41,422 nt of DNA from an uncultured Chlorobiaceae bacterium (GTDB lineage Bacteria > Bacteroidota > Chlorobiia > Chlorobiales > Chlorobiaceae). The notes under the pieces were generated by a model that ran no database searches, was not told where the DNA came from, and worked only from the letters and a program-made list of their open reading frames with translations. Below, piece by piece: positions 13,595-41,422 of the stretch. Made by a program: the position numbers and the translations under genes. The stretch covers positions 1 to 41,422 of the forward strand of contig CAIQGA010000037.1 of NCBI GenBank assembly GCA_903871235.1, in the 5' to 3' direction. Position 1 is the stretch's first letter; every line of letters begins with the position of its first letter.

Positions 13595-15157
13595 ATGAAG
13601 AGTGAAAAATTGAGGGTTGCCGCCATTGATCTCGGCACCAACTCCTTCCACATGATTATTGTCGAAGAGAATCCGCAGAAGGGGATTGTTGAGATTGATC
13701 GTGTCAAGGATATGATTTGTATTGGTCGTGGCAGCATCTCCACAAAAATGCTCAATGAAGAGGCCATGCAGTCAGGTATAGCCGCGTTGAAAAATTTTCT
13801 TGTTCTTGCCCGGCAGCATGGCGTAGCGCAGGAAAATGTTCTTGCCTTCGCCACCAGTGCCATTCGCGAGGCAAAAAACCAGGGGGATTTTCTCCGCCGT
13901 GTCCGCGAGGAGACCGGCCTGAAGGTCAAGGTGATTTCCGGCAGGGAGGAGGCTGAATTTATCTACTATGGAGTTCGTAATGCCGTGAAGATTGGCAAAA
14001 CTGCCGACCTTCTCTTCGATATCGGCGGAGGTTCGGTCGAGTTTGTGCTTGTCAACGAGAAGGGGATACAACTGCTCGAGAGTCGCAAAATTGGTGTGGC
14101 AAGGATGTGCGAGCGCTTTGTTGCCTCAGAACCGATAAGCAGCCACAACATCCATCTCCTTGAACAGTTCTTTTCGGCCGAGATGGTCACCGCTGTCGAA
14201 AAGGCCTCCCAACTCCAGGTGAGCAGGGCCATCGCCTCTTCAGGCACCGCACAGAATATCGCCCGCATGATAGCCTCCATGAATGGCCGTGAGAGTGATG
14301 CCTCGCTCAACAACAGCGTCTTCACCCGCAAGGAGTTTAAGGCTCTTTACCAGGCAGTCATTCCGCTCGGTGGCGGCGAACGGAAAAAATTGACAGGCCT
14401 TGACGAAAAAAGGGTCGATCTCATTGTGCCGGGGCTTATTCTTGTCGATATGATCTTCAAGCTCTTCAATCTGCAGGAGATTGTGATTGCTGATTCAGCC
14501 CTGCGGGAGGGAATGGTGCTCCACTATTTGAAGCATCGCATTGCTTCAGGTGCAAGGCGGGGAGAAGACGATGAACTCGACATCCGTCGTGAGAGTGTCT
14601 ATGAACTCGGCTTCCGATGTAACTGGATGCGTGACCATGCAGAGCATATTGCCCGACTCACACTTCAGCTTTTCGACAAGCTTGAACCCCTGCACCATCT
14701 CGACAAGCCTTACCGCGAACTGCTTGAGTACGCCGCACTGCTCCACAACATTGGCGCATTTATCTCCATTTCATCACATCACAAACACGGTCAGTACATC
14801 ATTCTCAATGGGGAGCTTCGTGGATTTTCTCCTTCGGAGATCGAGATTATCGCTCATGTTGTCCGTTATCACCGCAAATCTCCTCCATCGGAGCGTCATA
14901 CGGCCTACAACCTGCTCAAGCCAGAGCATAAACGGGCTGTTGACCTGCTTTCCGGTATGCTGCGTATTGCCAACGGTCTTGAACGTGGCCACCGGAAGAA
15001 TATTCAGAAAGTCAGCGTGGAGATTCGCGAGCGCGACATAACGCTTCGCCTCAAAAGCCGTTGCGAGCCCGACATTGAAATCTGGGCCGCCGACCTGCTG
15101 AAACCCTGGCTCGAAACCGTTCTCGACAAAACCATTACCATCGAAGCGAATCAGTAA
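13595..15157 (+). CDS. ppx: Ppx/GppA exopolyphosphatase-family phosphatase with HD domain
   Basis: The 520-residue protein has the two actin-like ASKHA halves of Ppx/GppA: phosphate loop IDLGTNSFHM (residues 11-20), ATSAIREAKN near 90, and DIGGGSVEFVL near 143. The C-terminal HD-like domain carries LLHNIGAFIS followed by SSHHKHGQYI. The family hydrolyses polyphosphate or pppGpp, and sequence alone does not separate the two activities. The last residue and stop codon (CAG TAA) are the first heptamer of a long repeat array, so the 3' end of the gene may have been reshaped by the array. Confidence 0.87.
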   Translation: MKSEKLRVAAIDLGTNSFHMIIVEENPQKGIVEIDRVKDMICIGRGSISTKMLNEEAMQSGIAALKNFLVLARQHGVAQENVLAFATSAIREAKNQGDFLRRVREETGLKVKVISGREEAEFIYYGVRNAVKIGKTADLLFDIGGGSVEFVLVNEKGIQLLESRKIGVARMCERFVASEPISSHNIHLLEQFFSAEMVTAVEKASQLQVSRAIASSGTAQNIARMIASMNGRESDASLNNSVFTRKEFKALYQAVIPLGGGERKKLTGLDEKRVDLIVPGLILVDMIFKLFNLQEIVIADSALREGMVLHYLKHRIASGARRGEDDELDIRRESVYELGFRCNWMRDHAEHIARLTLQLFDKLEPLHHLDKPYRELLEYAALLHNIGAFISISSHHKHGQYIILNGELRGFSPSEIEIIAHVVRYHRKSPPSERHTAYNLLKPEHKRAVDLLSGMLRIANGLERGHRKNIQKVSVEIRERDITLRLKSRCEPDIEIWAADLLKPWLETVLDKTITIEANQ

Positions 15158-15249
15158 TCAGTTGTCAGTAATCAGTTGTCAGTAATCAGTTATCAGTAAT
15201 CAGTAATCAGTTTTCAGTTGTCTGATTACTGATTACTGATAACTGAAAA
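15152..15249. repeat. CAGTNNT heptamer array with 25-bp hairpin
   Basis: Ten head-to-tail 7-base units (CAGTAAT, CAGTTGT, CAGTTAT, CAGTTTT types) occupy 15152-15221. Four inverted units (CTGATTA, CTGATTA, CTGATAA, CTGAAAA) follow to 15249. Bases 15186-15210 pair perfectly with 15222-15246, giving a 25-bp stem and 11-base loop. The first unit supplies the ppx stop codon. The array fills almost all of the ppx-pabBC gap. Confidence 0.95.
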
Positions 15250-15265
15250 CTCAAATATTCCGACC

Positions 15266-17119
15266 ATGCGCGACCGCACCCTGACGTCACAATGCCTCGT
15301 CACCCTTTCGTGCGAAGGGTCGCTTTGGCTTGAATCAGCCTTTTGCAAAGAGCTGGATGGCGGGGCGCTGCTCTTCTCCGCTCCTCTGGAGGTGGTGACG
15401 CTCACCTCCCTCTCCGGGCTTGAGAGCTTTTTTCGGAAGCTTGAGGAAAAGCTTGCTCAGGGCTTTTTTCTTGCCGGCTGGCTCACTTATGAGGCCGGTT
15501 ACGGTTTTGAGGAGTGCCTTGCCGACCCTGCTCACACTCTTCCGGTCCCACCGCTCGGCTGGTTCGGCATCTACCGCCAGCCGCAGCGCTTTTCTGCCCG
15601 AGAGGTCGAAGAGCTTTTTGCCGAAGCGAGCGCACTCTCCTCTCTCACGCTCAATGATCTCTTCTTCAACCTCTCTCAGGCAGAGTACTGTCGTAAAATT
15701 GAGAGTATCCGGGAGCAGATTGAGGCAGGAAATGTGTATCAGGTAAACTTTACCGGGCGATACCGCTTTACGTTTAATGGCGCGGCACCGGCACTTTTTG
15801 CAGCATTGAGAGGCGCGCAACCCTCCTCATACACCGCTCTCCTCAACAGCAAAGAGCGCACCATTCTCTCCTTTTCACCCGAACTCTTTTTCAGACGCAG
15901 CGGCTCCTCTATCGAAACCATGCCGATGAAGGGGACTGCACCAAGAGGGCGCACGGCAGAAGAGGACAACACCCTGAAAGAGGGGCTTGGGCAATGCCCA
16001 AAAAACCGGGCAGAGAATCTCATGATTGTCGATCTCCTGCGCAACGATCTCGGGCGGATATGCAAGCCCGGCTCAGTTGAGGCAGGGGAGCTCTTTGCCA
16101 CCGAAAGCTGGCCGACGCTCCATCAAATGCTTTCAACGATCTGCGGTGAGCAAAGGGAGGAGGTCGGGCTCTACGAACTCTTCCAGGCGCTCTACCCATC
16201 CGGATCAATAACCGGAGCGCCTAAAATAAATGCCATGAAGCTCATTCAAAGCCTTGAAGAGGAACCAAGAGGGATCTATACCGGCACTATCGGCTATATC
16301 ACCCCGGAGCGTGACATGGTTTTCAGCGTAGCCATCCGCACCATTGAGCTTACAGGCAACAAAGGGCTCTACGGTTCAGGGGGAGGCATCGTCTGGGACT
16401 CCAACCCCGCCGAAGAGTACCGGGAGTGCCAGCTCAAAGCAAAAATTCTTGGGGTGGGTGCAGGGTTTGGCCTTTTCGAAAGCATCCTCTGGAATGGAAG
16501 CTATCTCTGGCTTGAGGAGCATCTCCAGCGGCTTGCCGCATCAGCCGCAACCCTCGGCTTTCCCTGCAACATCGCCACCGCTGCACGACACCTCAGCACT
16601 CTCGAAGAGGAGCTGCGCCGAAACGCCGCCCGATACAAGGTAAAGCTCACCCTCTCCATGCAGGGAAGCTTTGGCACCAGCCATGAGCCAATACCTGCGC
16701 AGTCTTCCGCCACCACGCTTCGCCTCTGCATAGCCGCACACCGGGTCGATTCCCGAAACCCCTTGCTCCACCACAAAACCACCGAAAGGGCGCTCTACGA
16801 CCGCTACCTCACCCTCGCCCGTCACAGCGGTTACGATGAAGTGCTTTTTATGAACGAGCACGGAGAGCTGACCGAAGGAGCCATCAGCACCCTTTTTATC
16901 CGTCAAGGCCACCAACTCCTGACGCCTCCGCTCCACTCCGGCCTTCTCAACGGTATTTTTCGCAGCAACTTTCTCGCCACCCGCCCCTTCGCCGCCGAAA
17001 AAACCATAACCCTCCACGACCTGCAAACCGCCACCGCCCTCTTCATCGCAAATTCAGTCCGGGGCCTCAGGCCAGCTCTCTTCACTGGCAAAAAGTTGTC
17101 AGTAATCAGTAATCAGTAA
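15266..17119 (+). CDS. pabBC: Fused aminodeoxychorismate synthase I / aminodeoxychorismate lyase
   Basis: This 617-residue fusion makes 4-aminobenzoate for folate. Residues about 1-395 are PabB. PMKGT (220-224) contains the lysine typical of ADC synthase rather than anthranilate synthase, and GSITGAPKINAMKLI (313-327) and IRTI/GSGGGIVWDS complete the chorismate-binding fold. Residues about 398-610 are a PabC-like class IV PLP lyase with lysine K504 in HHKTTERALYDRYL and GELTEGAIST. The downstream minus-strand folP supports a folate role. The last seven residues (LSVISNQ) and the stop are encoded by a heptamer array, so the C-terminus has probably been replaced or extended by repeat sequence. 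Confidence 0.9.
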   Translation: MRDRTLTSQCLVTLSCEGSLWLESAFCKELDGGALLFSAPLEVVTLTSLSGLESFFRKLEEKLAQGFFLAGWLTYEAGYGFEECLADPAHTLPVPPLGWFGIYRQPQRFSAREVEELFAEASALSSLTLNDLFFNLSQAEYCRKIESIREQIEAGNVYQVNFTGRYRFTFNGAAPALFAALRGAQPSSYTALLNSKERTILSFSPELFFRRSGSSIETMPMKGTAPRGRTAEEDNTLKEGLGQCPKNRAENLMIVDLLRNDLGRICKPGSVEAGELFATESWPTLHQMLSTICGEQREEVGLYELFQALYPSGSITGAPKINAMKLIQSLEEEPRGIYTGTIGYITPERDMVFSVAIRTIELTGNKGLYGSGGGIVWDSNPAEEYRECQLKAKILGVGAGFGLFESILWNGSYLWLEEHLQRLAASAATLGFPCNIATAARHLSTLEEELRRNAARYKVKLTLSMQGSFGTSHEPIPAQSSATTLRLCIAAHRVDSRNPLLHHKTTERALYDRYLTLARHSGYDEVLFMNEHGELTEGAISTLFIRQGHQLLTPPLHSGLLNGIFRSNFLATRPFAAEKTITLHDLQTATALFIANSVRGLRPALFTGKKLSVISNQ

Positions 17120-17197
17120 TCAGTAGTCAGTAATCAGTAGTCAGTAGTCAGTAGTCAGTAATCAGAAAACTGACAACTGATAACTGATTACTGATAA
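17100..17197. repeat. Second CAGTNNT heptamer array
   Basis: Nine CAGTAAT/CAGTAGT units run from 17100 to 17162. CAGAAAA and inverted CTGACAA, CTGATAA, CTGATTA, CTGATAA units follow to 17197. CAGTAATCAG (17156-17165) can pair with CTGATTACTG (17184-17193). Unit type and forward-then-inverted order match the array at 15152. The array begins inside pabBC and supplies its stop. Confidence 0.95.
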
Positions 17198-17252
17198 CTA
17201 AAAAACTAACTATATTGCCCTCATACAAAAAACTAACCCATACCCGACCACC

Positions 17253-29577: not shown

Positions 29578-29712
29578 GTGAGATCGGAAGTATTTCAAAA
29601 TTTCCGGTTCCGTTGGGTGTGAAAATATTTACGGTTATATTGGCTCTTTGCGGCGAAGCGATAAAGTCAAGTGCCGCAAACTTTATCAAACGTCTTGAAT
29701 TGTGGGATCTTT

Positions 29713-30699
29713 GTGCATAATAGAGTATACGTTGCCGGTCATCAGGGAATGGTTGGTTCTGCCATTGTGCGTCACCTCTTTGCCCAAGGGTTGAACTCCG
29801 GGAATTTGCTGCTCAGAACGCATGCTGAGCTTGACCTCACTTGTCAGGCGGCGGTTCGGACATTTTTTGAGAGTGAAAAGCCCGCACAGGTCTACTTGGC
29901 AGCGGCAAAAGTTGGCGGTATTCATGCCAACAATTGCTATCCGGCGGAGTTCATTTACCAGAATCTGATGATTGAGGCCAATATTATTCATGAGAGCTGG
30001 CGTGCGGGTGTGCAAAAGTTGCTTTTTCTCGGTTCGAGCTGTATCTATCCCCGGTTGGCATCGCAGCCGATGCCGGAGAGCGCCCTTTTGACGGGCCCTC
30101 TTGAGCCGACCAATGAGCCTTATGCCATCGCCAAGATTGCCGGTATCAAGCTCTGCGAAAGTTACAACCGGCAGTATGGAGAGAGCCATGGAACCGACTT
30201 CCGTAGCGTTATGCCGACTAACCTCTATGGCCCCGGTGACAATTATCACTTTGAAAACAGCCATGTTATTCCGGCCATGATCCGCCGTTTTCATGAGGCA
30301 CTCAGCGATCAGCATTCAGCATTCAGCACTCAGCGCTCAGTCCAGATATGGGGTAGTGGCACGCCGCTGCGGGAGTTCCTCTATGTAGATGATATGGCAG
30401 CAGCAAGTCTCTTTGTGATGAACCTCGACAAGGCGGTTTTTGCCGCCAACACCACTCCGATGCAGAGTCATATCAATGTGGGGAGCGGTCGGGAGGTTAC
30501 TATCAAGGAGCTTGCTGAAACTATTTCAAAAGTGGTTGGCTACAAGGGTGAGATTGAGTTCGATTCAGCGAAACCGGATGGTTCACCCCGGAAATTGATG
30601 GAGTGCAGCCGCCTTAACAACCTTGGATGGAGGCCGAACGTGGGGCTTGAAGAGGGGTTGGCGCTCGCTTATAACGATTTTTTAATTAACCACCAATGA
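29713..30699 (+). CDS. fcl: GDP-L-fucose synthase, with repeat-encoded loop
   Basis: This 328-residue SDR epimerase/reductase converts GDP-4-keto-6-deoxymannose to GDP-L-fucose. It has the NADP motif [11 protein letters not shown] (7-17), active-site S108 and C110 in GSSCIYP, and the Y137-K141 pair in YAIAK. The GTG at 29713 is chosen because it gives [10 protein letters not shown], close to the family start, with GGGA just upstream. GTG 29671 would add 14 residues. Residues 197-210 ([14 protein letters not shown]) are encoded by a CAGCNNT heptamer array and replace a shorter loop of relatives. The gene overlaps gmd by four bases (ATGA). Together they supply fucose for surface polysaccharide. 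Confidence 0.92.
30303..30344 (+). repeat. In-frame CAGCNNT heptamer array inside fcl
   Basis: Units CAGCGAT, CAGCATT, CAGCATT, CAGCACT, CAGCGCT and a partial CAGTCCA run head to tail. Three units equal 21 bases or seven codons, so the translated product repeats as LSDQHSA / FSTQRSV. Unit length and the CAG-Y-NN-T skeleton match the intergenic arrays at 15152 and 17100. Confidence 0.9.
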
Positions 30700-40197: not shown

Positions 40198-40518
40198 GTT
40201 GAACTGCTTCGTGACAGATGTTTGTTCCTGCCTTTTGTGATTGAATTTTCGATTTGTCATGAAAGTAGTTTTGCATGAAACCAAAAATATGTTTTGTTTT
40301 AAATTGGTTGTACTCTTTTGTATATTTTCTCATGTAATATAGTCGTATATATGTGGATTGTGGATTGTGGATTGTGGATTGTGGATTGTGGATTGTGGAT
40401 ATGCTTGACGTGTATGTTGCGTTGCTTTACTGTAGTTACTGTTTTTGTTTTGTCTCAGTATTTTGTTGCTTTTTAAGTATTTAACGGCTATTCACGGCTA
40501 ACTCTACCCATAGTACCA
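40198..40518. other. Gene-free gap before the adhesin
   Basis: This 321-base gap is AT-rich and contains no credible gene. It holds the GTGGATT array (40353-40401), an ACGGCTA motif repeated twice around 40485-40500, and the first copy of a direct repeat AGTACCAAT (40512-40520) that overlaps the adhesin start. The adhesin promoter must be here. No clear -10/-35 pair or terminator after the permease was recognised. Confidence 0.6.
40353..40401. repeat. GTGGATT heptamer array upstream of the adhesin
   Basis: Six perfect GTGGATT units (40353-40394) are followed by a seventh with one mismatch (GTGGATA, 40395-40401). The array ends 117 bases before the adhesin ATG. Perfect identity of the units suggests recent slippage or expansion. 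Confidence 0.97.
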
Positions 40519-41422
40519 ATGAGTACCAATAATACAACGTCGCTTGCAATTGTCGCTGAAATTACCGGGAAGGTATGGACTGTGGCTGAAGATGGAACCC
40601 GCCATCTCCTTCAGAAAGGTGATGCGGTGTATGAAGGTGACGTTATTCTTGCTGAGGGTGGCGGTCTGGTTGTGCTTAGGGCGGCAAGTGGTGCTGAATT
40701 GAAGGTTACAGAAAGCAAAGAGGTCGTATTGAGTGACGGGCTGTTTGAAGGCGTGGAAAATACGTTCAGCCTTAATTTGAGGGGATTGATGGCCGCAACG
40801 GACGGAGCGCCTGACGTCGGCAGCATCGGATTGCTCGATGGAGTGGTGTTTGATCAGCCAGTTGACTGGAGGAGTTTTGATAATCTCAGTGAATCGGAGT
40901 CCCTTAGTGGATTTTTAAGTATTGAGCGTGTTGTGGAGTCCGTTACTGCTCCTCCGTATCTTTTATGGTCGTTTACGGGTAATTATAACTCGTCAACTAA
41001 TTTTCGTTTATCAAGTTACAACCCCTTTCTTGATGGTCGGGCGACTTATGACGAGCGAATAATAATGAGCCTTGAACCGCTTGGTTTTACTTATGAGGAA
41101 CCATTGCTTTTGCAAAAAACCATCGTTTTTGCAGAGACTCCACTTTTGCAGCCGAAAGTGGTTTCACCAATAGTTCCGGTGGTTAATGACCAGACCCGGC
41201 AAGGCTACGTCGAAGAGGAAGCCCTCACTGGCGGCAACAGCGACACCAGCGATGTCAGCGGCCTGACGGGAGACAACGATGGCAACAACGCCGTCTGGTC
41301 AGGCACGCTGAGCGGCCTTGCCTCCTTCGGCGCCGACCAGCCAGGCACCTATACGATTAATATGGTCACGACCGGCTTGCCCGTGCTCACCTCCGAGGGT
41401 GCCACCGTGCTCTACAGTGTGA
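40519..41422 (+). CDS. Large LapA-like adhesin, N-terminal part (retention module plus T1SS-type repeat)
   Basis: The frame stays open for 301 codons to the window edge. Residues about 9-75 (AIVAEITGKVWTVAEDG, then QKGDAVYEGDVILAEGGG and LRAASGAELKVTESKEVVL) resemble the N-terminal retention module that anchors LapA-type adhesins in the TolC-like secretion pore. A dialanine at residues 92-93 (GLMAATDG) falls where LapG-type proteases cut. A linker unlike known domains follows. From about residue 230 begins a repeat domain (SGTLSGLASFGADQPGTYTI, LTSEGATVLYS) of the large T1SS-exported proteins. The complete protein is probably thousands of residues with a C-terminal type I secretion signal. 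No ribosome-binding site is seen, and the start lies within a direct repeat. Confidence 0.7.
   Translation, partial: MSTNNTTSLAIVAEITGKVWTVAEDGTRHLLQKGDAVYEGDVILAEGGGLVVLRAASGAELKVTESKEVVLSDGLFEGVENTFSLNLRGLMAATDGAPDVGSIGLLDGVVFDQPVDWRSFDNLSESESLSGFLSIERVVESVTAPPYLLWSFTGNYNSSTNFRLSSYNPFLDGRATYDERIIMSLEPLGFTYEEPLLLQKTIVFAETPLLQPKVVSPIVPVVNDQTRQGYVEEEALTGGNSDTSDVSGLTGDNDGNNAVWSGTLSGLASFGADQPGTYTINMVTTGLPVLTSEGATVLYSV

Follow-up and report, generated by a model that had tools for sequence, protein, structure and literature searches.

The window analysed here, 41,422 nucleotides long, is the entire contig G000:C37 of a draft assembly (234 contigs, 3.3 Mb) of an uncultured Chlorobiaceae bacterium. 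Close to its end, a short intergenic region separates an ABC permease gene from the 5′ part of an adhesin gene, and it is within this region that a tandem heptamer array is found. The features of the locus are as follows.

40198 to 40518, + strand: intergenic region of 321 bp, with the ABC permease gene (Pfam PF02653) and the adhesin ORF on either side, delimited from the ORF list, Pfam and composition.
40344 to 40350, + strand: CGTATAT, adjoining the array start, a possible −10-like element by sequence reading.
40352 to 40400, + strand: exact period-7 array of 7.0 TGTGGAT units, equal to (GTGGATT)6 plus GTGGAT, found by TRF and by the exact-tract scan.
40405 to 40433, + strand: TTGACG-17-TACTGT, weakly promoter-like (8 of 12 consensus positions, under the scan threshold), just 3′ of the array.
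40519 to 41421, + strand: adhesin ORF, 5′ part (301 aa), with a retention-module-like N-terminus, cut by the contig end.

The array itself is a confirmed feature. TRF describes 49 bp of period 7 with 7.0 copies, 100% matches and no indels, and the run of 42 lag-7 matches is far above chance, the per-base match probability in this spacer being about 0.31. Read in the GTGGATT frame, six full units occupy 40353–40394, GTGGAT follows at 40395–40400, and then comes an A. The original prediction of a heptamer array ahead of the adhesin start was right to within a base: the gap, given as 117 bases, measures 118 from the array end to the ATG at 40519, while the span proposed for the feature, 40353–40519, takes in the leader as well as the array proper, which stops at 40400. 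The number of units, seven, comes from one genome of the species.

The gene downstream very probably encodes a type-I-secreted adhesin. Because the contig stops 301 aa into the ORF, the “giant” size that had been attributed to the protein is invisible within the window; it is inferred from a syntenic orthologue in genome G033, which is complete and encodes a repeat protein of 2477 aa. On the 3′ side of this orthologue are genes for an outer-membrane efflux protein (OEP), a rotamase, an ABC transporter with C39 and cyclic-nucleotide-binding domains, and an HlyD-family protein (L027 8674-14691). This type I secretion set is seen next to the syntenic orthologue only, as the window contig ends too early. 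Given this complete repeat protein and the secretion genes next to it, the label “adhesin” is sound. The further description “LapA-like” holds only in part, because the N-terminus scores 46.7 bits against the LapA retention-module model NF033682, just under the cut-off of 50, and because a search of the same genome for a LapG-type protease found no PF06035 match (the positive control being in Caulobacter).

An array in this position invites comparison with the hmw1A and hmw2A adhesin genes of Haemophilus influenzae, where tandem 7-bp units likewise lie about 100 bp upstream of large adhesin genes (PMC2651432). At hmw1A the promoter in use is P2; the heptamers overlap its −10 as well as the −35 of P1, lie between P2 and P1 in the 5′ UTR of P2, and more units give less transcript (PMC8262952). 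A selected phase-variable promoter of this type, in which slippage alters the number of GTGGATT units and hence initiation or leader length, is a possible but not the favoured reading of the locus. Under it, the amount of adhesin would vary stepwise, and the population would consist of attaching and free cells, a picture that we hold just as tentatively. The anatomy of the array is in line with such a switch, given pure heptamers 118 bp ahead of a secreted adhesin gene and promoter-like strings on both sides of the array, as in hmw; to this extent the analogy drawn in the original prediction stands. Yet the unit differs from that of hmw, the secretion route differs, and seven units are few for an hmw promoter, for which 9 to 28 were found in one survey (PMC2424069) and 13 to 38 in others. 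Here, moreover, the arrangement is known from the sequence of one genome, and the promoter is only a candidate.

The promoter-like strings find little backing, which counts against a selected switch. Neither CGTATAT nor TTGACG-17-TACTGT was listed by the promoter scan, which also gave no excess of promoter-like sites, and the enrichment of sigma-70 motifs ahead of genes did not suffice for calibrating promoter calls. Motif discovery in 18 homologue leaders returned nothing in common with the flanks of the array and left CGTATAT unsupported; by eye, strings resembling it (TNCGTATTAT) occur in some homologue leaders. In one homologue, L008, TTGACG is kept, but as far as can be read no second hexamer matches at a spacing of 17 bases.

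Two other functions for the array may be considered. The first is translational control by an upstream ORF that starts at ATG 40351, opens 41 codons across the array, and ends at a stop whose place depends on the unit number modulo 3, so that gain or loss of units would shift its end. This is very improbable, since with 3 to 11 units all of these frames end ahead of the adhesin ATG, no Shine-Dalgarno-like sequence precedes ATG 40351, and RNA folding of the leader is no better than that of shuffles. A variant in which the upstream ORF is fused to the adhesin is ruled out, as no frame fuses them for 3 to 11 units. The second is a cluster of protein-binding sites, such as those for DnaA, because TGTGGAT in each unit comes near the reverse of the DnaA box: six units match the reversed TTATCCACA at 7 of 9 positions and the last at 8 of 9, and a perfect TTATCCACA is found near dnaA in this genome. 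The likeness is weak, with the full box present in no unit, dnaA located on another contig, and a 7-bp spacing that would make adjacent 9-bp boxes overlap; we give a binding-site cluster scarcely any credence.

The relatives bear on the origin of the array. Among 65 genomes of this Chlorobiaceae genus, (GTGGATT)3 with at most one mismatch occurs in one, at this single site. The array is absent from the syntenic orthologues L009 and L010, which have the same upstream permease gene, and ahead of the other 26 homologue matches no tandem repeat exceeds 16 bp (for L117, the stretch read is coding). As far as could be checked, then, the array appears unique to the species. The absence from orthologues counts against a selected switch and fits a recent expansion, which is in keeping with the recent length change originally read from the perfection of the units. 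L008, a non-syntenic homologue with a different neighbouring gene, carries a single ATGTGGATATG, then CTTGACG and then TGTATGTTG, just as they follow one another in the window; shuffling gives this similarity a probability of 0.005 to 0.008, uncorrected for the 26 comparisons made. It is tempting to propose, because L008 keeps these elements in this order, that the array grew from one unit to seven, although the evidence for this is weak. A search of a plasmid collection gave no match.

The array must also be seen against the other heptamer repeats of the genome. Exact repeats were surveyed in a sample of 794 kb taken in stretches, about 24% of the genome. Period 7 had 7 runs of 11 matches or more, against 6 for periods 12 and 14, 4 for periods 9 and 15, 3 for periods 3 and 10 and 1 for periods 4 and 11; the other periods between 2 and 16 had none. 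A stricter cut of about three units, applied to the first 523 kb, left six at period 7 and one at period 14, with none at periods 3–6, 8–13 or 15. Since all but one of the exact period-7 tracts in the 794-kb sample are inside the window, exact tracts alone show no genome-wide excess. A pattern search, unlike the exact tracts, does show such an excess: four consecutive TCAGTNN units give 76 overlapping matches in this genome, where the reversed control pattern gives none. Such arrays are present in 17 of the 65 genomes of the genus (this one and 16 congeners), and in the examples fetched they are mostly intergenic and at gene ends. Two of them lie within the window.

15149 to 15246: TCAGTNN array with an inverted arm, at the 3′ end of a Ppx/GppA gene.
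17094 to 17199: TCAGTNN array with an inverted arm, at the 3′ end of a chorismate-binding/aminotransferase gene, overlapping the end of its ORF.

Heptamer arrays in this genome are therefore not specific to surface genes, and because TCAGTNN arrays adjoin housekeeping genes, a period-7 array by itself does not imply contingency control. This argues further against a selected switch, and the special role once assigned to the array is weakened by the same widespread arrays of other unit, together with the orthologues that lack it and its mere seven units.

We consider it reasonably probable that the array arose recently, by slippage, in the promoter/leader region of this type-I-secreted adhesin gene and is likely to be mutable in length; any effect on adhesin expression is putative. 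According to this explanation, the array would have expanded by replication slippage, perhaps with a lone GTGGATA as the starting unit, in a lineage that appears to accumulate heptamer arrays, and it can probably still gain and lose units; if the adhesin is affected, the cause would be a changed promoter spacing or a leader of different length. We hold it more likely that there is no effect, or an incidental one, than that the array is a selected switch. The general tendency to slippage is drawn mainly from the TCAGTNN pattern counts, because the exact period-7 tracts are mostly in the window. Since its unit is not of the TCAGTNN family, and it is purer and of single orientation, the GTGGATT array may have a cause of its own.

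If the array does vary and tune the adhesin, promoter-repeat phase variation would reach beyond host-adapted pathogens into a free-living phototroph, and the length of the locus could be counted directly in environmental reads. We regard it as doubtful that a green sulfur bacterium here controls its surface attachment by a heptamer-repeat phase-variable promoter; a literature search on green sulfur bacteria and phase variation turned up no such switch. If there is no switch, a heptamer array near an adhesin gene must be judged against the genome's own heptamer background.

TAACTGA heptamer repeats have been described in Beggiatoaceae, Cyanobacteria and five Bacteroidetes, in a text that does not mention Chlorobi (PMC4679880). 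TCAGTTA is the reverse complement of TAACTGA, and the TCAGTNN arrays elsewhere in this genome and genus match these repeats on the other strand, belonging to the same unit family. The array at 40352–40400 is likewise an intergenic heptamer array, but its unit, GTGGATT, places it outside the TAACTGA family, and its distance to the start codon is 118 bp, while most TAACTGA arrays in BOGUAY are no more than several bases away (PMC4679880). The GGGAATC and GGGGA(T/C)T repeats of Xanthomonas and Nostoc (PMC4692102) are also intergenic heptamers, and GGGGATT is one base from GTGGATT; in contrast to these G-rich repeats, GTGGATT occurs at one locus and forms no genome-wide family. A stable quadruplex is unlikely for the GTGGATT array because its G runs are only two long.

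Heptamers were met in a few other settings. An imperfect TCAGCAT-like array of 43 bp, at 30298–30340 of the window, is inside an epimerase ORF (29671–30699), where it is read in frame as 12 amino-acid letters. Long TCAGT-type arrays sit at contig ends in two relatives (L082 6-132, in G071:C2, and G001:C38:1-166), which suggests that heptamer arrays break assemblies. Viral contigs were rejected as relatives of the locus, as blastn with the last 2.4 kb of the window matched them only at the repeat. Eight viral contigs (L149–L156) have at least three GTGGATT units; three of them (L151, L154 and L155) show identical flanks around the units, and another (L152) carries a longer, imperfect GTGGATT array.
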